Positions 1,166 through 43,019 of a DNA stretch of 43,087 nt are shown here, in pieces (the first letter of the stretch is position 1; every line of letters starts with the position of its first letter). A program made the translations under genes and the position numbers. A model generated the notes under the pieces. The model had not been told where the DNA came from and searched no databases. It worked only from the letters and a program-made list of their open reading frames with translations. Where the stretch lies: positions 1-43,087 of IMG/VR virus record IMGVR_UViG_3300028829_003755. One strand, written 5' to 3'. Source of the DNA: a virus.

Positions 1166-1852
1166 CTAGATGTCGGGCTGGTCGCCGCTGTTCAGGGCCA
1201 CGGGCGCGTCCTCACGGCTGCGCTGGGCCCCCTGCGCCACAAACGACTGGATGTTCGTGGCCGCGTCCAGCCCCTCCTGCGTCGCCTCAGCCGACGTCAC
1301 AGAGAAGAGGCTGTACTTCGCCCCGGTGGTGCGGGACGACGCCTCGCCGACCGAGAACTTAGCCACGGGCATCTGGCCCATCGCCACGGCACGGTCCACG
1401 ATGAAGTTGAGGGCCTTGCTCGGCTTGAGGCCAGCCGTACGGCTAAGCATCAGGCGCATCGGCACGGTCGCGTCAACCTCAGGGACGAGGATGGTGTAGT
1501 GGTGGTTCACCCACACGTCACGGTCGCCGTTGGCACGCGCGGCGTCGTACTCATCCTTGTCAAGCCAGTCCATCTGGCCACCCTGCTCAAAGCGGGCGTA
1601 GGACCGGCGGCGGTCAAGGATGTAGGCGGTGAAGCTGTCGTTACCGGAGTCGCCCCCGATAAGGAACGTGGGCTCGGGGTCGTCTGCGCCGAGGCCGACA
1701 ATGACCTCGCCCGACTTGCCGATGCCGTTCTGCACTGCCTGCGACAGCCCCTGCAGCAGATAGATGCTGGGCAGCTGGCGGTCGCGGTTGTCCACGGTCT
1801 CGTACAGGGACGGGAGCGCGGGGTTCGTAGTAGTCGTCACATCAGTACTCAT
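1166..1852 (-). CDS. Replication-operon protein, possibly ssDNA-binding or accessory (uncharacterised)
   Basis: A 228-residue protein between the coiled-coil protein gene and DNA polymerase. I do not recognise a named family with confidence. Near residue 28 it carries the stretch LPSIYLLQGLSQAVQNGIGK, which recalls phage proteins with a 'P.I.LLQ..S..V' opening that often lie in replication or structural clusters. The C-terminal third is polar and rich in Ser, Ala and Gln, ending in an acidic SGDQPDI tail. The size and tail fit, but do not prove, a T7 gp2.5-like single-stranded-DNA-binding role next to the polymerase. The ribosome site AGGAGA lies 7 bases from the ATG. The stop codon is followed after one base by the polymerase ATG, suggesting coupling. 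Confidence 0.8.
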   Translation of the reverse strand: MSTDVTTTTNPALPSLYETVDNRDRQLPSIYLLQGLSQAVQNGIGKSGEVIVGLGADDPEPTFLIGGDSGNDSFTAYILDRRRSYARFEQGGQMDWLDKDEYDAARANGDRDVWVNHHYTILVPEVDATVPMRLMLSRTAGLKPSKALNFIVDRAVAMGQMPVAKFSVGEASSRTTGAKYSLFSVTSAEATQEGLDAATNIQSFVAQGAQRSREDAPVALNSGDQPDI

Positions 1853-1863
1853 ATAGGGTTCTC

Positions 1864-2259
1864 CTATTCGCTAGTGATAGAGATGTATTCACGAGGATAC
1901 CACGTAGTACCCTCAGGGAGCGGGGTGCCGTTGTTGACAGCCTCCCGCACGTATTCGTTGAGTCTAGCACCTACTTCCTTCTGGCGCAAGAACTCGTCCT
2001 CAAGACCTGTCGTCTTTACCCACTCGGTAAAGGCGTCCATGTCCTGTACCTTAGCATACAACGTGCTCTTGGTGGCGAACGTGGCCACGTCCGTCCTCAC
2101 GGTACGCAGCCCGGTCTCCCGCATGAGCTCAAAGACCTCGGCCTGAAACGCATCGTGCTCGCGCTTCGCCTTCTTGGCGAGGTCGTCCTTCATCTGGTAA
2201 TCCTCCTTGAGCATGTGAAGCTTGTCAAGGAGCTCTGAAAGCTGCTCGGAAGAGGTCAT
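1864..2259 (-). CDS. Coiled-coil phage protein of the replication cluster
   Basis: A 131-residue protein. The first 50 residues are a heptad-rich, charged helix (LSELLDKLHMLKEDYQMKDD and following). Then come a beta-type segment with TVRTD and TKSTLYAKV, the segment MDAFTEWVKTTGLEDEF, and a C-terminal NGTPLPEGT turn. This coiled coil / 'T.KS.YA.V.D..AF..W....GL' layout matches a widespread phage hypothetical family found near replication and recombination genes. I cannot assign a biochemical function. Its ATG overlaps the TGA of the upstream gene (ATGA), and it is followed 11 bases later by the 228-residue gene, so it is part of one coupled operon. Confidence 0.82.
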   Translation of the reverse strand: MTSSEQLSELLDKLHMLKEDYQMKDDLAKKAKREHDAFQAEVFELMRETGLRTVRTDVATFATKSTLYAKVQDMDAFTEWVKTTGLEDEFLRQKEVGARLNEYVREAVNNGTPLPEGTTWYPREYISITSE

Positions 2260-4554: not shown

Positions 4555-4565
4555 ATTATAGCACA
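4555..4565 (-). promoter_or_regulatory. Extended -10 promoter for the leftward helicase-polymerase operon
   Basis: On the minus strand the sequence reads TGTGCTATAAT, a perfect -10 hexamer with a TG extension. No convincing -35 hexamer lies at 16-18 bases. The predicted transcript would start near 4548, about 40 bases before the ATG at 4506. The same TGTGCTATAAT is found at 12538 and 16149 on the plus strand, which supports function. Confidence 0.75.
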
Positions 4566-6758: not shown

Positions 6759-7092
6759 CGTCGTCCTCGGGCCCGGACTCGGGCAGCAGCTGAACCGCTG
6801 CGTGGTAGGCCATGAAGCGGTTGATAACAATGACAGCGCGCGTGATGCCCTCGCACATGCCCAGCATCTCAGCCGTCATTTCATCAGAAGCATCGGCCTC
6901 CCTGCCCTCGTCCAGAACAGCAACGAACAGCAGGTTGGTGAGCCGTTCCAGCGCATCGCTGGTGCTGGCAATCTCAAAGATGTCAGCACCATCCTCAATC
7001 ATGGCAGACAGCATCTTGTTGATAGGCTCGGTCACTTCGGGACCAGCCATCTGCAGAAAGTCCTCAATGGTGATGTCAAGATCGTCGGTCAC
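6751..7092 (-). CDS. Acidic helical hypothetical protein (113 residues)
   Basis: Starts with GTG inside a GTGA overlap with the preceding micro-gene; a GGAG lies just upstream. The reading frame can be extended to 7155, but that part is in the wrong context and lacks a ribosome site. The protein is mostly helical and acidic (VTDDLDITIEDFLQMAG, FEIASTSDALERLTNLLFVA), with a hydrophobic helix ITRAVIVINRFMAYHAAVQL and a very acidic end, GPEDDDA. Function unknown. Confidence 0.75.
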   Translation of the reverse strand: MTDDLDITIEDFLQMAGPEVTEPINKMLSAMIEDGADIFEIASTSDALERLTNLLFVAVLDEGREADASDEMTAEMLGMCEGITRAVIVINRFMAYHAAVQLLPESGPEDDDA

Positions 7093-7202
7093 TTCTCCAT
7101 CCTTTCTAGTAGAAGCCAGATGAGGGCTACGCCCCCGACACACAGGGCTGTCCATGCGACAAACCCTGCGATGAATGATAGCACACTAAAGATCGTGTCC
7201 AC
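7089..7202 (-). CDS. Single-span membrane micro-protein (37 residues)
   Basis: GTG start at 7202 overlapping the end of the upstream gene by 17 bases, with AAGG about ten bases before it. The protein is MDTIFSVLSFIAGFVAWTAL followed by CVGGVALIWLLLERMEK: about 26 hydrophobic residues then a charged tail, so a single membrane helix with a cytoplasmic C terminus is likely. Its TGA overlaps the next GTG (GTGA). Too short for the usual gene-length cutoff, but the overlaps on both sides and the clean hydrophobic profile support it. Could affect membrane potential or superinfection; unproven. Confidence 0.65.
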   Translation of the reverse strand: MDTIFSVLSFIAGFVAWTALCVGGVALIWLLLERMEK

Positions 7203-10421: not shown

Positions 10422-10910
10422 CTACCGGACGCCCAATTCGACCAGCCGGAGCAGACCGTAGATGCTCGGGCGGGTCAAGCCGTCGTGGCCAACGTCCAGC
10501 AGTCCGGACGCGCTGGCCTTGTGCTCACCGATCCGCGCGGAGGCTGTGCCCTCGGCGATGGCGTAGGCACCGGAGCACCGGATAGCGTCGGCGGTTCGCC
10601 TCACCAGATCCACGTTAGGGATTCCGCCGTAGCCGCCCGCGCGCCATGCGATAACGAGCGCCGTGTCAATCACATGCTGCGACTGCGACGCGCCGCGCCC
10701 GTACGGGCCGCCGTGGTTCGCGCCGCCCGCGCGCTTGCGCCCGGCGGGCTCAAGCATGGACGCGACCGCGCGGCCCATCGTGGCCGGGCTCTTTACGTTC
10801 GTGCCACGGTTGAGTCGGTCGGCAGCGTACTGAAACGACCAGTACGACCCGGCCGACGTGGCGCGGGTGGCGTGGTCAATGATGGACCAGCGGCGAATCG
10901 TCTCTGACAT
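10422..10910 (-). CDS. Hypothetical protein, isolated single-gene leftward unit (162 residues)
   Basis: MSETIRRWSIIDHATRATSA opens a basic, Gly- and Ala-rich soluble protein (GRKRAGGANHGGPYGRGASQ in the middle, then IDTALVIAWRAGGYGG, and a C terminus YGLLRLVELGVR). An AAGGAGA site lies about eight bases before the ATG. It is the first leftward gene beside the control region and is closed by its own strong terminator, so it is probably expressed as a separate, early, single-gene transcript. Position and composition would suit an early host-takeover or DNA-binding protein, but nothing in the sequence proves it. Confidence 0.78.
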   Translation of the reverse strand: MSETIRRWSIIDHATRATSAGSYWSFQYAADRLNRGTNVKSPATMGRAVASMLEPAGRKRAGGANHGGPYGRGASQSQHVIDTALVIAWRAGGYGGIPNVDLVRRTADAIRCSGAYAIAEGTASARIGEHKASASGLLDVGHDGLTRPSIYGLLRLVELGVR

Positions 10911-11093
10911 TGTTGTGTCTCCTTCGGGTAGTGCGAGGGTTCCCCCCCTCGCGCAACAAGAACACTATCACCCGGCGGATGGGTCGCGCCCGATTGTGTT
11001 CCCGTATTACATAGCCCTTGCGGATTGTGTGTGACTGTGCTACACGCGACCGTCTGACCGTATGACCCCTGCACTAGCACCCACCCGATCAGG

Positions 11094-11158
11094 TGTCAAG
11101 GTGATACGGTTCCACCGGAACAATCCGTGATGTTCCGGTAGAACCGTGATACTTGACA
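11094..11158. promoter_or_regulatory. Large dyad between two outward-facing TTGACA boxes
   Basis: Arms 11106-11122 and 11131-11147 are 17 bases each and complementary except for one position, with an 8-base spacer. Outside them lie GTGATACGG and TTGACA reading left (11099-11094), and GTGATAC and TTGACA reading right (11153-11158). The -10 boxes at usual spacing are weak on both sides, as expected for activator-dependent or tightly controlled promoters. Alternatively this is an origin-type dyad. Confidence 0.6.
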
Positions 11159-11266
11159 ACCGGGGCGGGGCGGACCTCACAATCGGTACGGGTGGGGGAG
11201 GTGGCAAATCTACGAACGAAACAAGATTTTGCGCGCGACCACGCAAACGGTAGCTGGCAGGGCACA

Positions 11267-11281
11267 GTGACACCGTGTCAC
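11267..11281. promoter_or_regulatory. 15-bp perfect palindrome
   Basis: GTGACACCGTGTCAC has seven-base arms around one central base. It lies downstream of the rightward TTGACA and upstream of hairpin element B, in a position suitable for an operator. No regulator is known. Confidence 0.45.
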
Positions 11282-11365
11282 AGTTGCAGATGGATCAGGT
11301 GATTGCTGTATGACGGTGTGATCTCTTGCCGCAGACACGGGGAAGCGGAGTGAAATCCAACCCCT

Positions 11366-11472
11366 GCGAAAAGGATCCCCAATGGTTTCACCGTTCTATG
11401 TTTAAGATGTCAGTTGGTTAAGCTATTCCCCGTAGGGGAATAGCTATACCAACCAGAAGACACATCTAAACA
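11366..11472 (+). repeat. Composite box-plus-hairpin element, copy B
   Basis: The box GCGAAAAGGATCCCCAAT (11366-11383) differs from copy A at one base. Then come CTATGTT (11396-11402) and TGTCAG, and an 11-bp perfect stem AGCTATTCCCC (11421-11431) with 11435-11445 around a three-base loop. TTGGT/ACCAA pairs below it and an outer 11-bp stem (11399-11410 with 11462-11472, one bulge) closes it. TTTTT follows four bases later, so copy B could end a rightward transcript started at 11153. The stem sequence is unrelated to that of copy A. Confidence 0.7.
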
Positions 11473-11510
11473 AAGCTTTTTGTGGCCGCGTTGGGGAATC
11501 TCCGGGCGGA

Positions 11511-11521
11511 TGTGCTAAACT
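11511..11521 (+). promoter_or_regulatory. Extended -10 promoter for the first rightward genes
   Basis: TGTGCTAAACT is a variant of the TGTGnTATAAT boxes seen elsewhere in this genome. TTGGGG lies 19 bases upstream of the hexamer. Transcription would start near 11528, giving a short leader with GGAGAAAGGA before the ATG at 11553. Confidence 0.6.
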
Positions 11522-11552
11522 CCACCTAACACCAACGGAGAAAGGATCCGAC

Positions 11553-11927
11553 ATGGCGCAGGCAACAGCCAATTGCCAAGAGTGTGGGCAGGAAATGGTC
11601 ATGATGAACAAGAAGCGGAAGTACTGCGGGGAGTGCCAAGTGGTCCGAGACGTGTCTTGGGCACCGAAGCGGAAGATCAACTGCGAGGTGTGCGACGAGA
11701 CCTTCTGGCCGATCCGTACCAGCTATAAGAGGTGCACCGACTGCGCCTCGTTCCGGGCGAATAACCCGGAAAGGCACAGAGAATGTGTCAAATGCCACAA
11801 AAACTATCGTCCGGCACCCGGAGTTGAGGCGACCTGTGTTAAATGTGTGCAGGGATCGGAAAAAATGCGGGACGCATATGTCAAGACGCTGCTGCGGCGG
11901 CGAAAGGAGCGAATCAATGTCGGATGA
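11553..11927 (+). CDS. Multi-zinc-ribbon protein (124 residues)
   Basis: Three CxxC pairs of knuckles are visible: CQECGQEMVMMNKKRKYCGEC, CEVCDETFWPIRTSYKRCTD followed by C, and CVKCHKNYRPAPGVEATCVK followed by C. Each is CxxC, 11-15 residues, then CxxC, as in zinc ribbons or treble-clef fingers that bind nucleic acid or protein. The C terminus is a basic helix (VKTLLRRRKERINVG). The middle finger closely resembles the N-terminal finger of the HNH protein at 19795. As first gene of the rightward block behind its own promoter it could regulate transcription; that is inference. Its stop overlaps the next start by 11 bases. Confidence 0.85.
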   Translation: MAQATANCQECGQEMVMMNKKRKYCGECQVVRDVSWAPKRKINCEVCDETFWPIRTSYKRCTDCASFRANNPERHRECVKCHKNYRPAPGVEATCVKCVQGSEKMRDAYVKTLLRRRKERINVG

Positions 11928-12294
11928 GATGAAGTTCATGGACGCACATGAGGTTGTTTCGGGAATTGAGTTGGACTTCCTTGAGCTGTCCTACGAGGGC
12001 CCTCGGGCAATGAGCATCCACCTGTCGGAAGACTCGGCCCGCGAGCTTGCGATGGCGCTGTACGAGATGCTGCTAGAGGACGAGGCCCATGTTGAGATGG
12101 AGGCTTCCATCGCGTTTTGCGATCCGGCCAACCCGTGCAGCTGGTGCGATTCGTCGTGCCGCCATTACCGCGCGCCGCTGCGGCTGGTCAAAGACTGGGA
12201 CCCCGGTTCGACCCCGACGGGCAGCTGGACGGCCCCCTCGGAGTGGTATGAGCACGTCAAGGCGCGCTATGAGGAGGGAGACCGTGACTTCTAG
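11917..12294 (+). CDS. Hypothetical protein with a Cys-rich loop (125 residues)
   Basis: Start MSDEMKFMDAHEVVSGIELD has AAAGGAG upstream and overlaps the zinc-ribbon gene by 11 bases; a longer in-frame reading from 11785 lies inside that gene. The N-terminal half is acidic (FLELSYEGPRAMSIHLSEDS, then an LAMALYEMLLEDEAHVEMEA helix). The middle has FCDPANPCSWCDSSCRHY, four closely spaced cysteines that could bind zinc. The C terminus is aromatic and acidic. Function unknown; followed by a GTG overlap into a chain of membrane micro-genes. Confidence 0.77.
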   Translation: MSDEMKFMDAHEVVSGIELDFLELSYEGPRAMSIHLSEDSARELAMALYEMLLEDEAHVEMEASIAFCDPANPCSWCDSSCRHYRAPLRLVKDWDPGSTPTGSWTAPSEWYEHVKARYEEGDRDF

Positions 12295-12376
12295 CAGCTG
12301 GGGGCTTTGGGATTACGTCACGCTGGCGTGGATGGCGGGCGCGTTTTGCCTGTTTGTCTGGTGGGGGGTCTCGTGA
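12284..12376 (+). CDS. Membrane micro-protein 1 (30 residues)
   Basis: GTG start with GGAGGGAG four bases before it, overlapping the previous gene by 11 bases. The peptide is MTSSSWGLWDYVTLAWMAGA followed by FCLFVWWGVS: one hydrophobic helix rich in Trp and aromatic residues. It is first of three consecutive peptides of the same kind. The strong ribosome site and overlaps support translation. Possible roles are membrane perturbation, superinfection exclusion or help to lysis; none is shown. Confidence 0.6.
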   Translation: MTSSSWGLWDYVTLAWMAGAFCLFVWWGVS

Positions 12377-12377
12377 C

Positions 12378-12467
12378 GTGTACATCCTTGATTATGTCGT
12401 CCTAACTGCGGCAATTGCCGGGCTGATTTGGGCAATTTGGTACGTGGCGACCGGGAGAGCTGAGTAA
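12378..12467 (+). CDS. Membrane micro-protein 2 (29 residues)
   Basis: GTG one base after the preceding stop; the purine run GGGGGG about nine bases upstream may serve as the ribosome site. The peptide is MYILDYVVLTAAIAGLIWAI followed by WYVATGRAE: one membrane helix and a short polar tail. Its TAA overlaps the next ATG (TAATG), so translation is probably coupled. No homologue recognised. Confidence 0.58.
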   Translation: MYILDYVVLTAAIAGLIWAIWYVATGRAE

Positions 12468-12535
12468 TGTGGCTTTTCGTACTGTTTGCGGTAATGGTAG
12501 CGATTGTGGTGTACCAGATGATGTACTGGTGGTAA
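12467..12535 (+). CDS. Membrane micro-protein 3 (22 residues)
   Basis: ATG in a TAATG overlap, with GGGAGAG seven bases upstream. The peptide is MWLFVLFAVMVAIVVYQMMY followed by WW: almost entirely hydrophobic, long enough to span a membrane once, with aromatic residues at the end. It ends immediately before the extended -10 promoter at 12538. At this length chance is a real alternative, but the chain of three with ribosome sites argues for a real gene. Confidence 0.52.
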   Translation: MWLFVLFAVMVAIVVYQMMYWW

Positions 12536-12537
12536 TG

Positions 12538-12548
12538 TGTGCTATAAT
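12538..12548 (+). promoter_or_regulatory. Extended -10 promoter
   Basis: TGTGCTATAAT, identical to the boxes at 4555 (minus) and 16149. No -35 hexamer at usual spacing. Transcription should start near 12555 and drive the gene at 12579, the tRNA and the fibre genes. Confidence 0.72.
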
Positions 12549-12578: not shown

Positions 12579-13034
12579 ATGGCCTATGTTGATAGCTCTA
12601 ATGGCGTGACCTACTGGTTCAATGACCGAGGCATGACCCGGAACATTGATCCGTGGAAGAAGGCCGCTGAGCGGCTGGCTGCCGATGTGGAAGAGTATCT
12701 GTTCAAGGACGTTGACGGTGAGGGCACCGCCAACCCGAACTATCAGAACGTGGATTTCTTGAGCTGGTGCGTTGCACGCTACGACGCCTGCAAGACCGGC
12801 TCCGGGCATTCGTGGGAGTACATGAAGTACTCGCCCGACGTGCCGAGCCTCGCGCCTTACGCGCCGGAGAAGCCGGTGCGCGCCAAGAAGACGTCTGACC
12901 CCGGCGACATTGTGGCCAGCCGGGGAGCCTACGACGGTCCCGGTACGAAGTACGAGGGCCGGATTCGCGGGCTTGAGGTTCCCGTTGAGCCCAGCAAGAA
13001 GAAGCGCAAGAAGAAGGACCAGCAGGAAGACTAG
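12579..13034 (+). CDS. Hypothetical protein with basic tail (151 residues)
   Basis: MAYVDSSNGVTYWFNDRGMT begins a soluble protein with a ribosome site AGGAGG five bases before the ATG. The centre has WKKAAERLAADVEEYLFKDV (helical) and NVDFLSWCVARYDACKTGSG. The C-terminal 60 residues are Pro-, Gly- and Lys-rich and low in complexity, ending KKKRKKKDQQED, a strongly basic stretch capped by acids. Family not recognised. First gene after the 12538 promoter and just upstream of the tRNA, it could be a minor virion or nucleic-acid-binding protein. Confidence 0.77.
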   Translation: MAYVDSSNGVTYWFNDRGMTRNIDPWKKAAERLAADVEEYLFKDVDGEGTANPNYQNVDFLSWCVARYDACKTGSGHSWEYMKYSPDVPSLAPYAPEKPVRAKKTSDPGDIVASRGAYDGPGTKYEGRIRGLEVPVEPSKKKRKKKDQQED

Positions 13035-14654: not shown

Positions 14655-15976
14655 TGGCTGTGTATCCCCCGCTTACAGGGGGCGGCGGCGGTAGCGACGC
14701 TCCCGGCCCTCCCGGACCCCCCGGCAAGAGCGCCTACGCTGTCGCCAAGGACAACGGCTTTGTCGGCTCAGAGGCCGAGTGGCTTGAGTCGCTTGAGGGC
14801 GGCCCCGGCGCTGATGGCAAGGACGGCGTTGACGGCCTGCCCGGCGCTGATGGCAAGGACGGCCTGCCCGGCGCTGACGGCAAGGACGGCGTTGACGGCC
14901 TGCCCGGCGCTGATGGCAAGGACGGCCTGCCCGGCGCTGACGGCAAGGACGGCCTGCCCGGCGCTGATGGCAAGGACGGCCTTCCCGGAGCTGACGGCAA
15001 GGACGGCGCCGACGGAGCCGACGGCAAGAGCGCCTACGAGATTGCCAAGGCCAACGGCTTTGTCGGCACCGAGGCCGAGTGGCTTAAGTCGCTTGAAGGC
15101 GAAGACGGCGAACCCGGCAAGGACGGTGCTGGGGGAGCCCCCCGGTTCAAGGTCGCCCTTCCGTACAGCGATGGCGAGCTTGGGGATGACAACACCAAGA
15201 GCTTCGACATGCGCGCAAACGGCTCAGCAGCGACTGGGGCATACCACACCGTGACCGGAATCAACATCCGGTGCGAGAAGGACGACACGTTCCACGAGGT
15301 TGCGAACAGCCTCTACAACAAGATGAACGGTGAGCAGTTGAAGTGGAGTGACTCCGTTGGACGGTCTACTCACTACATGATCCGTTCAGGGACCAAGACC
15401 GACGAAGGCACCTACACCAAGTTCGGGTTCACGGTTGTTTACGCACCCCCGCCGGAAGGCGACTGGGGAACCAACACCAGCTGGGTATGGTCGGAATACG
15501 AGTCGCCGTTCACGATTGACGTGCCGCTGCTGTCCGACCCGATTAACCGGGAGGAACTGGAGAATCACGACAACGGCGTTGCGAGCACAGGGATCACCTT
15601 TACCGGCGCGCCGACCCCGATTATTTGGGACGGGTACGCCACCAAGGGCGACAAGATCATGTCGTTCAATAGCAGTTACAGCGGCCAGACCAAGGTCTAC
15701 TTCAGGCACAACCCCGGCACTTACGGCTTGTTCACATGGGACTTCGGGGAGACAACAAGCGCAGCGATGAGTTGGATCTTCGGCAGCGCCGGGGAAAGCT
15801 TGAAGGTGGACAAGTACGGGATCAAGGTCAACGGCAACTCGGTGAGCCGCAACGTGGACATCCTTGAGTCAGTTCGCGGGGCCAAGAGCTTTGAGGACTT
15901 CAAGCAGGCGCTGATCGCCAAGCTTGAGGAGCGAATCGCTCAGGAGGAGCGTGAACCGGAGGCCGAAGATGAATGA
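14654..15976 (+). CDS. Collagen-like tail fibre with KSAYEIAxxNGFVG modules (440 residues)
   Basis: A Gly-rich start is followed by a PGPPGPPGKSAYAVAKDNGF module ending EWLESLEG, then seven ADGKDG collagen-type repeats, then a second module (KSAYEIAKANGFVGTEAEWL). The remaining roughly 280 residues are a globular receptor-binding-like domain (SVSRNVDILESVRGAKSFED and earlier). The 'KSAY.IA..NGFVG...EWL.SL.G' unit is a recurrent linker in phage and bacterial collagen-like fibres. It ends in a charged coiled coil with EERIAQEEREPEAEDE. Likely a trimeric host-recognition fibre. The repeat array is DNA-level repetitive and may vary in copy number. Confidence 0.85.
   Translation: MAVYPPLTGGGGGSDAPGPPGPPGKSAYAVAKDNGFVGSEAEWLESLEGGPGADGKDGVDGLPGADGKDGLPGADGKDGVDGLPGADGKDGLPGADGKDGLPGADGKDGLPGADGKDGADGADGKSAYEIAKANGFVGTEAEWLKSLEGEDGEPGKDGAGGAPRFKVALPYSDGELGDDNTKSFDMRANGSAATGAYHTVTGINIRCEKDDTFHEVANSLYNKMNGEQLKWSDSVGRSTHYMIRSGTKTDEGTYTKFGFTVVYAPPPEGDWGTNTSWVWSEYESPFTIDVPLLSDPINREELENHDNGVASTGITFTGAPTPIIWDGYATKGDKIMSFNSSYSGQTKVYFRHNPGTYGLFTWDFGETTSAAMSWIFGSAGESLKVDKYGIKVNGNSVSRNVDILESVRGAKSFEDFKQALIAKLEERIAQEEREPEAEDE
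14807..15027 (+). repeat. 27-bp tandem repeat inside the fibre gene
   Basis: Seven near-identical copies of a unit encoding LPGADGKDG, two of them extended by a VDG insert, with only single-base differences between units. The homogeneity suggests recent expansion or ongoing homogenisation by recombination, which would change fibre length in steps of nine residues. Confidence 0.85.
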
Positions 15977-16146
15977 AGTGGGATCTTCGGGTAATCACAG
16001 CGATTGGTGTGTTTCTCTCGCTGGGGTTGATGCTTATTCTGACTCCGCTGGTGGACAAGCAAGTTGACGAAGCAGCACTTTCAGGGTTCTTTGCACTCCT
16101 TGGCGCTGCCCTTGCGTACGTGTTCACGGGAAACGATAAGCACTAA
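15973..16146 (+). CDS. Holin-like two-span membrane protein (57 residues)
   Basis: MKWDLRVITAIGVFLSLGLM begins a protein with one membrane helix (roughly residues 6-26), a short charged loop (DKQVDEA), and a second hydrophobic helix (ALSGFFALLGAALAYVF), ending in polar GNDKH. Two spans, small size and charged ends fit class II holins that open the membrane at lysis. The ATG overlaps the fibre gene stop as ATGA. The endolysin lies 2.6 kb downstream with fibre genes between, so pairing with it is by inference. Confidence 0.72.
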   Translation: MKWDLRVITAIGVFLSLGLMLILTPLVDKQVDEAALSGFFALLGAALAYVFTGNDKH

Positions 16147-18117: not shown

Positions 18118-18731
18118 TGGCTGTTGAGTACGACCCAAATGGCATTCCGATCCTGTCTGGGGAGTCAATGCTGTCTGACGTGCCTCAGTACACGCAGGAG
18201 CTCGCTCCGAAGCTAGTTGCTCTTGACGACAAGATTGACTCTGCGGGGGGTCCGACCGTGGTTGGTCCGCTCACATGGTCCCCCGGCACCTTCAATGTCG
18301 GTACGCACAACCTGACCGGCCACGCTTTCAACGGCAAGGTGGGCGATGTTTGGAGCGGTCAATTTGTTATCAGTTATGTGGGAAGCGGCGCCGTCGGCAG
18401 TGTCACCGGCAAGCTCAGCCTCGCCTCCGGCATTAGCCTTTCCAGCCCCACGAGCGGCGGTCTCAGCTTTGTCGGTAGTACATCCACCAATGTTATCTGC
18501 GTCGCGTTTTCGTGGAAAGCGGTTACCGCAAACGACTACTTGATCGTTAACATTTACAGCAATGGGGGCGGAACTTCGGACAGCCATATTCAGGCCACCG
18601 CCATCAACTTTGGAGGCGGTGTTACCACCACCCTGCGTGAACGAGCTGAAATGTTTAAGGAACGGTTGGAAACACCGACAGCAGGCACGGCAGACCAAAA
18701 GTTTGAGTATGAAAAGGAGCAAGATGCCTAG
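18117..18731 (+). CDS. Fibre or appendage protein with shared N-terminal module (204 residues)
   Basis: The first 30 residues (EYDPNGIPILSGESMLSDVP and QYTQELAP) match those of collar protein 2, suggesting a common anchor to the virion. The middle is a Gly/Ser/Thr-rich beta domain (GAVGSVTGKLSLASGISLSS and onward) with no collar motif. The C terminus is a charged coil (LRERAEMFKERLETPTAGTA). A receptor-binding or decoration role fits. Starts in a TAATG overlap, and its stop overlaps the endolysin start by eight bases. Confidence 0.75.
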   Translation: MAVEYDPNGIPILSGESMLSDVPQYTQELAPKLVALDDKIDSAGGPTVVGPLTWSPGTFNVGTHNLTGHAFNGKVGDVWSGQFVISYVGSGAVGSVTGKLSLASGISLSSPTSGGLSFVGSTSTNVICVAFSWKAVTANDYLIVNIYSNGGGTSDSHIQATAINFGGGVTTTLRERAEMFKERLETPTAGTADQKFEYEKEQDA

Positions 18732-19587
18732 TAATGCAGAAAAGGTACTGGCTGAGGCCCGCAAGTGGCTCGGTCATTCCGAAAGAAAGCCACAGCTCGA
18801 CAACCGAGGCACTGGCAACCCACCGACCTACTCGGAGGGATCGTGGATCGTCAACAAGTGCTGGCAGGAGGGCGGCTACTCCTCGCCGCAGCCGTGGTGC
18901 GGCTGCTTTGTGATTTTTGTTGCAAACCGCTGTGGATACAAGGCATACCAGCCGACCTCTAAGGGCGGGGTTGGCCACGGTTATACCGGCACAACTTACA
19001 GTGAAGCCCAGAAGCGAGGGTGGCTTAAGTCAAAGCCAGTTTCCGGCGCGTTGATGATTAAAAACGGCAAGCACGTCGGCATTGTGGACAAGGTGTATTC
19101 AGACGGGACTTACTCAACGATTGAGGGTAATTCAAACGACGCTGTGAGCTCCCGCCGCCGGAACCTCAGCGAAGGTTGGTCTTTCGTGGTGCCAAATGAC
19201 CTCGGCGGAGTTGGCTCGACCTCTGATGTAACGATGTACGCATTTGAGCGGCTGGACATCAAGATTTACGGAGGCTGGGGCACGAAGGAGGCCCGCGACA
19301 GTCAGATGACCAAGTTCAAGAACGGTCACCCTGACTACTGGACTAGGGCAATCAAGACCACCAAGAAGTCGCCCTACAGCTTTGAGGCAGGTCCTCCCGG
19401 CACCTACGGGAAGCCGACTCAGTACGGCGGCTGGTCCAGCAAGGCAACGCGCGACACCCAGCTGCAGCAGTTTCAGGCGGCTAACCCCGGCATCCCGACG
19501 CGCACCTACAACTACAAGAAGACCGTGGCGGGTCCGCCGCCCAGCGACTCCACGCCCACTACAGGTGGGCCGGACAAGACCACTTAA
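18724..19587 (+). CDS. CHAP-type endolysin with C-terminal wall-binding repeats (287 residues)
   Basis: The start MPSNAEKVLAEARKWLGHSE has AAGGAG four bases upstream; an in-frame extension to 18562 lies inside the fibre gene. Residues 1-150 form a CHAP-like amidase/endopeptidase: catalytic Cys in PQPWCGCFV (C59), His in KNGKHVGIV (H117), and Glu/Asn in TIEGNS (E134). The C-terminal part has two repeats with YGGW cores (IYGGWGTKEARDSQMTKFKN and QYGGWSSKATRDTQLQQFQA), probably cell-wall binding, joined to a Pro/Thr-rich tail. It should cut peptidoglycan after holin action. No signal peptide is visible, so export depends on a holin. Confidence 0.88.
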   Translation: MPSNAEKVLAEARKWLGHSERKPQLDNRGTGNPPTYSEGSWIVNKCWQEGGYSSPQPWCGCFVIFVANRCGYKAYQPTSKGGVGHGYTGTTYSEAQKRGWLKSKPVSGALMIKNGKHVGIVDKVYSDGTYSTIEGNSNDAVSSRRRNLSEGWSFVVPNDLGGVGSTSDVTMYAFERLDIKIYGGWGTKEARDSQMTKFKNGHPDYWTRAIKTTKKSPYSFEAGPPGTYGKPTQYGGWSSKATRDTQLQQFQAANPGIPTRTYNYKKTVAGPPPSDSTPTTGGPDKTT

Positions 19588-41453: not shown

Positions 41454-43019
41454 CTACAGCGCGCAGGCCCCGTCGGTGCACTCGGCTTCCACTGCGCCCT
41501 CGGGCTTCAACACGACCTCAGCTCGGGCACCCTCACGGTAGACCGTCACACCCTTGCAGCCTGAGGCGTGCGCCAGACGGTAGATGTAGTCTACGTCCTG
41601 CACGGTGGCGTCGTTGGGCATGTTGACTGTCTTACTGACAGCCTGATCGGTGTACTCCTGAAAGGCAGCCTGCGTTCGGATGTGCTGCTCGGGCGTCACC
41701 TCGTCGTAGGACACAAAGTACTTGTTGTCCGCCAAGACGTGCTCGTAGTCGTAGACTCCACCGAGGATGAAGTTCTGGCCACGGGCTCCGTAGTTCGGCT
41801 CAATGCCGGGTGACGTGCGGTTCTGGTGGTCGCCGGACAGCCACGAGATAGTGCCCGTCGGGGCCAGCACCTGACAGCACAGGTTGCGCCGCCGGGGAAC
41901 GGGCAGGCCGTTGTCGGTCGCGTAGCGCAGGGCGTCCTCGTAGCCTGCGAAAGTACCACGCTCCTTGGCCAGCTGCTCCGACTCGGCGTAGGTGCCTGCC
42001 TGAATAAACTTCATCACCTCGCGGGCCACCTCAATCGCCTCGTCCGAGCCGTAGCGAATCTCAAGCTTAATGAGCATGTCGGCGTAGCCCATCACGCCGA
42101 CGCCGATCTTGCGGTACTTGTGGTGCTGCTCACGGATCACGTCCAGCGGGTAGTCCTGCAACTCCACGATGTTGTCAAGCATACGGGTGAGGGTGTGCGT
42201 CGTGTCCGACAGCATGGCCCAATCAATCTTGCCGCTAACAACGTGGCGGGACAGGTCAATGCTTCCCAGCACGCATGCCTCGTACGGCAGAAGCGGCACC
42301 TCTCCACACGGGTTGGTGGCGTGAATCTCCTCAGGGTGCAGACGCTCCATGTTCACGGTGTCCTCAAAGAACACGCCGGGCTCACCATTAGCCCACGCAC
42401 GCTGCGTAATGTCGTGCCACAGTCCGGCGTTTACCCCGTCCACACCAGCCATAAAAGTATCAGATAGCCCAACGCTAATATTAAAGTTAGAGATGTCACC
42501 TTCCACTTCCTTACATGAGATAAAGTCTTCGATGTCCGGGTGGTCCACATGCAAGATCGCCATGTTCGCTGCTGGCCGAAGCCCTGCCTGCGAGACCCGC
42601 TTGATCCAGTCCGAGTAGCCTCGGAGAAAGTCAACGGGGCCGGGGGCCTCTCGCCCAGTGCTTGATACGATAGCGCCCTTCGGGCGAATCGCACTGAACG
42701 AGAAGCCAGTCCCGCCCCCATACTGGTGCACGCGCGATGCGTCGCTGAGTGTACCAGTAATGGAAGCCTCTCCGTCGTACAAAGAATCGTTGATGGGGAG
42801 GACAAAGCACGCGCTGCCGCAGGACTTAGGGTTCCCTGCATTAGCTACAGCTGGTGTATTAGGGAACGCCAGCCGGTACTTCATCATCTTGTACTGAGCC
42901 TCCGCTTCCTCCGTGTTCGTACTCCACGCCTTCGCCACTCGTCGCCATACATCTTCTTCGGTCTCTCCGGGCTTGGCGAAACGCACACGGATAACTGCGT
43001 CACGGGGACTCTCCATCAT
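41454..43019 (-). CDS. nrdJ: Class II (adenosylcobalamin-dependent) ribonucleotide reductase
   Basis: A 521-residue reductase converting ribonucleoside (di- or tri-) phosphates to deoxy forms for phage DNA synthesis. Motifs: NPKSCGSACFVLP (Cys67/71), active-site loop ATNPCGEVPLLPYEACVLGS (N236, C238, E240), PTGTISWLSGDHQ substrate-binding loop, and a C-terminal CTDGACAL pair for reduction by thioredoxin or a similar donor. No separate small subunit is present, in line with class II. Start ATGATG with AAAGGAG upstream; a strong extended -10 lies before it. Cobalamin dependence is from family knowledge, not from a distinct B12 motif seen here. Confidence 0.9.
   Translation of the reverse strand: MMESPRDAVIRVRFAKPGETEEDVWRRVAKAWSTNTEEAEAQYKMMKYRLAFPNTPAVANAGNPKSCGSACFVLPINDSLYDGEASITGTLSDASRVHQYGGGTGFSFSAIRPKGAIVSSTGREAPGPVDFLRGYSDWIKRVSQAGLRPAANMAILHVDHPDIEDFISCKEVEGDISNFNISVGLSDTFMAGVDGVNAGLWHDITQRAWANGEPGVFFEDTVNMERLHPEEIHATNPCGEVPLLPYEACVLGSIDLSRHVVSGKIDWAMLSDTTHTLTRMLDNIVELQDYPLDVIREQHHKYRKIGVGVMGYADMLIKLEIRYGSDEAIEVAREVMKFIQAGTYAESEQLAKERGTFAGYEDALRYATDNGLPVPRRRNLCCQVLAPTGTISWLSGDHQNRTSPGIEPNYGARGQNFILGGVYDYEHVLADNKYFVSYDEVTPEQHIRTQAAFQEYTDQAVSKTVNMPNDATVQDVDYIYRLAHASGCKGVTVYREGARAEVVLKPEGAVEAECTDGACAL

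Follow-up and report, generated by a model that had tools for sequence, protein, structure and literature searches.

Three consecutive micro-genes, A, B and C, occupy the space from the end of the gene at 11917-12294 to the promoter-like site TGTGCTATAAT at 12538 of the window (the whole 43-kb virus record, a metagenome assembly). Predicted from the sequence, they are very probably genes, a view that rests on chain statistics, the ribosome sites of A and B and weakly better synonymous codon use. We tentatively propose that A, B and C are genuine, translationally coupled micro-genes that together form an accessory cassette, for which a holin-like or lysis-modulating role is the most likely one.

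The layout described in the initial annotation, with peptides of 30, 29 and 22 residues, a GTG one base after a TGA and then a TAATG, is present in full (Table 1). The start codon of A falls within the last codons of the gene at 11917-12294, the GTG of B at 12378 lies 1 nt past the stop of A (a spacing of +1 nt) and the start of C overlaps the stop of B by 1 nt. The cassette had been said to end at a promoter, and the promoter-like site indeed begins 3 nt beyond the stop of C, at a position conserved in two relatives (L015 and L037). Genes of 22-30 codons are usually below annotation length cut-offs and, as had been anticipated, gene callers would miss them.

Table 1 Features of the cassette region in the window and of analogous ORFs in related phages.
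Feature	Position	Strand	Description
Promoter-like extended -10	11511..11521	+	TGTGCTAAACT; before zinc-finger gene, start of rightward arm; TGTGnTAnAnT aligned in window, L004, L015 and L037
Zinc-finger-like gene	11553..11927	+	124 aa; repeated CxxC; landmark; 41% to L037, 39% to L015, shared Cys
First gene of inserted block	11917..12294	+	125 aa; likely ATG 11917 overlaps end of 11553-11927; synonymous codon use +14.8 bits
Ribosome site of A	12271..12280	+	GAGGAGGGAG; 16S-tail pairing -12.7 kcal/mol
Micro-gene A (very probable)	12284..12376	+	30 aa, one span; GTG start; TGA 12374-12376; MTSSSWGLWDYVTLAWMAGAFCLFVWWGVS
Ribosome site of B	12360..12368	+	GGTGGGGGG, also G6 run; 16S-tail pairing -11.6 kcal/mol
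Micro-gene B (very probable)	12378..12467	+	29 aa, one span; GTG start; TAA 12465-12467; MYILDYVVLTAAIAGLIWAIWYVATGRAE
Weak ribosome site of C	12453..12457	+	GGGAG; 16S-tail pairing -7.4 kcal/mol
Micro-gene C (very probable)	12467..12535	+	22 aa, one span; ATG 12467; TAA 12533-12535; MWLFVLFAVMVAIVVYQMMYWW
Promoter-like extended -10	12538..12548	+	TGTGCTATAAT; belongs to next gene; conserved before 12579 homologues of L015 and L037
Conserved landmark gene	12579..13034	+	151 aa; 39% to L015, 30% to L037
tRNA, CAT anticodon	13040..13113	+	conserved landmark; present also in L015 and L037
L015 single-span ORFs	1775-1840, 1840-1923		21 and 27 aa; MSTGLVVVCILVGILVAVVLL, MYKADHIMLLIVVGLCIAFAIAGIIAG; both start at TAATG
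L037 single-span ORF	L044 6607-6690		27 aa; overlaps end of 83-aa hydrophobic two-span gene

The peptides were expected to be nearly pure hydrophobic helices rich in Trp and Tyr, and this is borne out by their best 19-residue Kyte-Doolittle means (1.61, 1.99 and 2.33 for A, B and C) and by their counts of Trp plus Tyr (6, 5 and 5). The charged residues are D in A and D, R and E in B, with none in C. Mutual relatedness of the three was not detectable by shuffling (P of 0.075, 0.076 and 0.66), in agreement with the earlier view that they are not simple duplicates; shared ancestry is thus unsupported by these values.

Good ribosome sites had been credited to two of the three, which holds for A and B. 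Against random start-like triplets, for which the 1% and 10% quantiles of 16S-tail pairing are -10.7 and -7.7 kcal/mol, the sites of A and B lie beyond the top 1%, and that of C, which is weaker, just misses the top tenth. Hydrophobic coupled chains of three ORFs were absent from 400 order-2 Markov windows of 43 kb, in which even two-ORF chains arose at 0.005 per 43-kb strand, and a local dinucleotide model gave no three-member chain in 5000 simulations. The real window holds one hydrophobic three-ORF chain, on the plus strand, and no comparable hydrophobic coupled chain on its minus strand. With the hydrophobicity filter off, 25 three-ORF chains occur over both strands, so that packing by itself carries no weight, and a lone hydrophobic ORF of the L037 kind (Table 1) is expected by chance about 1.9 times per 43 kb. 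One other hydrophobic ORF, of 22 aa at 42431-42499 (-), was set aside as it lies inside the ribonucleotide reductase gene. Synonymous codon use scores +2.3 bits for the A-C frames together, compared with -5 to -40 bits for six fixed frames across the stretch; this signal is weak, since B alone scores slightly negative relative to the codon use of the genome.

Two further readings of the region as such were rejected. The GC of the A-B-C stretch is as expected from the peptides and the genome's own codon use, and hence the stretch is not oddly composed and a foreign base composition finds no support. The RNA of the region is not specially structured (z +1.34), and a structured regulatory RNA was dismissed on this folding score. 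TisB and Ibs are short hydrophobic type I toxins, which the length of 22-30 aa and the hydrophobicity of A-C recall. A function as toxins of a type I toxin-antitoxin system is nevertheless very improbable: a consensus scan of the minus strand yielded neither an antisense promoter of the phage's own class nor a sigma-70-type site, there is no structured leader, and the peptides are packed as in an operon and have no cationic face. Being non-cationic also argues mildly against a depolarising peptide of the TisB kind.

The G6 run at 12363-12368 makes a frameshift-joined A-B hairpin possible. A and B, perhaps with C, would then be one protein of two or three spans, produced by a programmed +1/-2 frameshift in the run or broken by an indel (a mutation or an assembly error, the sequence being a metagenome assembly). 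Upstream of its GTG the frame of B stays open across the run, and the product (...FVWWG-GSRD-VYILDY...) would be a plausible two-span hairpin, similar in length to that of the 57-aa gene at 15973. We consider this arrangement unlikely, because the start of B is correctly spaced from a strong ribosome site (-11.6 kcal/mol), C starts at a TAATG, two independent breaks would be needed, with a start codon at the stop in both cases, and the relative L015 has a matching TAATG-coupled layout.

The window is organized in two arms. Primase/helicase and SNF2 helicase genes lie in the leftward arm, ribonucleotide reductase is encoded at the opposite end of the record, and the rightward arm carries the A-B-C block, the tRNA, collagen-like fibres, endolysin, terminase, portal, capsid and internal virion proteins. 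Promoter-like sites of the family TGTGnTAnnnT are found at 4555, 7175, 7594 and 43053 on the minus strand and at 11511, 12538 and 16149 on the plus strand; they are of the extended -10 type with no clear -35 and have aligned copies in L004, L015 and L037. The sites at 11511 and 12538 flank the A-B-C block on both sides. Capsid matches to phages of Arthrobacter, Microbacterium and Cellulosimicrobium, together with the finding of the relative L037 in a Mycobacterium bin, make an actinobacterial host likely.

Three other features of this setting were observed. The leftward arm contains, at 7089-7202 (-), a single-span micro-gene of 37 aa that has a ribosome site, overlaps the end of the preceding gene and is GTGA-coupled to the following one. 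Between the arms, about 650 bp at 10907-11553 are without clear genes and hold inverted-repeat-like stretches (e.g. around 11420-11450), so that an origin or control region is possible. The tRNA-CAT, which could be initiator, elongator Met or Ile2, keeps its position in the window, in L015 (1914-1988) and in L037 (3034-3107) within a block that is otherwise little conserved.

Comparison with the relatives, whose terminases are 56% (L015) and 52% (L037) identical to that of the window, indicates how the block may have arisen; much closer are the near-identical viruses L002, L003 and L010, at 98% terminase identity. In both, the zinc-finger gene, the conserved promoter and the homologue of the 12579 gene are directly adjacent, and the 11917 gene and the A-B-C block are missing at the corresponding place. 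As judged from this adjacency, the 11917 gene with A-B-C is either an insertion in the lineage of the window or was lost in L015 and L037. The synteny search in relatives that had been suggested earlier thus had a mixed outcome, in that neither relative carries the cassette itself but L015 carries an analogous TAATG-coupled pair. The gene order in L015 (IMGVR_UViG_3300002461_000088) is the 12579 homologue, a 147-aa gene, the pair of 21- and 27-aa ORFs and the tRNA-CAT. The pair directly follows the 147-aa ORF, the window chain starts inside the end of 11917-12294, and the 27-aa ORF extends into the 5' end of the tRNA. Like A-C, the pair lies between the same landmark genes, although its slot differs, being after the 12579 homologue. 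The window and related loci, 529 kb in all, yielded only seven hydrophobic coupled pairs. Among 18 peptide pairs tested in two modes, B resembles the second L015 peptide (shuffle P 0.009-0.026) and C the first (shuffle P 0.002-0.018), weak similarities that are not significant after allowing for the number of pairs and are suggestive only.

The region from zinc-finger gene to tRNA in L037 holds neither the A-B-C block nor an ORF pair of the L015 type. The 27-aa ORF of this phage differs from A-C in its slot, which is the lysis cassette, and shows no significant sequence relation to them once the number of pairs is allowed for. Like the L015 pair, it shares with A-C a single span, stop-start coupling or overlap and the same virus group; with the pair, it indicates that small coupled membrane ORFs recur in this group. 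The 83-aa two-span gene and the 27-aa ORF (L044 6372-6690, Mycobacterium-bin phage) lie right behind an endolysin-like gene.

Searches with the pooled A-C peptides found no homologue in IMG/VR, INPHARED, PHROGs, Pfam or any of the fetched loci, and the only INPHARED matches, from Vibrio, were at E of 1-3. The peptides matched no PHROG and, at the curated cut-off, no Pfam family, and hence do not fall into a described holin or phage protein family. The gene at 11917-12294 also had no homologue in searches that included the fetched loci, and its single-sequence AlphaFold model was too poor for use (mean pLDDT 47). Queries with the primase, the SNF2 helicase and the 12579 gene returned no close IMG/VR contig spanning the cassette region, the zinc-finger alignment search returned L015 again and nothing else, and in the actinobacterial genomes searched the L037 phage was the only close relative, besides one distant terminase (L042). 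The lack of homologues in the four databases and the weak codon-use signal would both fit chance ORFs in an untranslated spacer, an explanation that we regard as quite unlikely given the chain statistics, the ribosome sites, the exact fit between gene end and promoter and the parallel in L015.

We next consider what coupled micro-genes of this kind might do. The probable holin of the window is the product of the 57-aa two-span gene at 15973-16146 (+), acting with the CHAP endolysin at 18562-19587 in the rightward arm. This two-span gene is 91% identical in L004, with 15 synonymous versus 5 replacement codons, and has no match in INPHARED. It overlaps the end of a fibre gene, and a TGTGCTATAAT promoter lies directly 3' of it. 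For A-C, an auxiliary lysis role appears the single most likely one, with exclusion or interference with the host membrane close behind. The actinophage literature, the gene order in L037 and the placement of the block in the rightward arm put the lysis role first. Holin-like membrane genes occur as arrays in actinophages, sometimes overlapping and sometimes far from the endolysin, and single-span genes are often added to a two-span holin/endolysin pair (PMC9671378). The single-span LysF1b is required for efficient lysis, and its deletion causes a lysis defect (PMC13056207). The L037 arrangement of endolysin-like gene, two-span gene and 27-aa span is the one clue from a functional neighbourhood, and it points to lysis. 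Counting against a lysis role are the distances of about 6 kb to the endolysin and about 3.4 kb to the two-span gene, and the lack of a charged cytoplasmic tail in A-C; the published single-span lysis proteins have at least 79 aa and such a tail, and distal holin-like arrays were accepted via homology (PMC9671378).

Each product would, once translated, insert into the host membrane as a single helix. In an auxiliary lysis role the assembled peptides, whose genes lie early in the rightward arm of structural and lysis genes, would act together, or beside the two-span holin-like protein, and may adjust the timing or manner of membrane opening.

Small single-helix regulators of bacterial membrane complexes are well known (CydX, KdpF, AcrZ and MgtS), and they offer a precedent for a role of real A-C peptides, nearly as probable as that in lysis, in host takeover or superinfection exclusion, in which the helices would bind and alter a host membrane protein or block the entry of other phages. 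The block is accessory and lineage-specific, missing from the corresponding site of L015 and L037 as would be expected of competition genes, and an endolysin and a conserved two-span holin-like gene are present elsewhere in the phage. However, it lies in the structural/lysis arm and not in the leftward replication arm, and A-C have no homology to known exclusion proteins in PHROGs, Pfam or INPHARED. The initial annotation had envisaged membrane stress, superinfection exclusion or depolarisation; none of the evidence gathered is specific to any of these.

Three such genes in a row in one virus, and two in a distant relative at almost the same location, suggest that phages possess a class of coupled, single-helix membrane peptides. 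Sequence searches would miss such peptides because they diverge beyond recognition, and position and coupling find them. More speculatively, and rather doubtfully, phages of this group may use fast-diverging multi-cistron devices anchored by position between the zinc-finger gene and the tRNA-CAT, in which bare helices of 20-30 residues, stop-start coupled, make up one hetero-oligomeric membrane complex. If the coupled peptides act on lysis or entry, few natural helices that do so would be smaller.

Of the known systems, the holin-like arrays of actinophages (e.g. Gordonia phage CaiB gp16-19; PMC9671378) are like A-C in being neighbouring, unrelated small membrane genes in overlapping frames, and they are accessory, reassorting and in some phages distant from the endolysin (PMC9671378). 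CaiB-type proteins have 72 aa or more and one to four spans, with charged tails on the single-span ones, whereas A-C are bare helices of 22-30 aa, and no sequence relation between the two was detected. A-C are adjacent genes with predicted spans that overlap or nearly so, as in an array, but lie outside the lysis cassette with its endolysin at 18562-19587. The resemblance is therefore one of layout only and, as neither family membership nor a lysis-cassette location applies, A-B-C is not filed as a holin. LysF1a and LysF1b of cluster F1 mycobacteriophages (PMC13056207) provide a second comparison. LysF1b shares the lysis cassette with LysF1a and was genetically tested, whereas A-C lie elsewhere and are known from sequence; the combination of a two-span protein with a separate single-span one is comparable to that of gene 15973-16146 with A-C.
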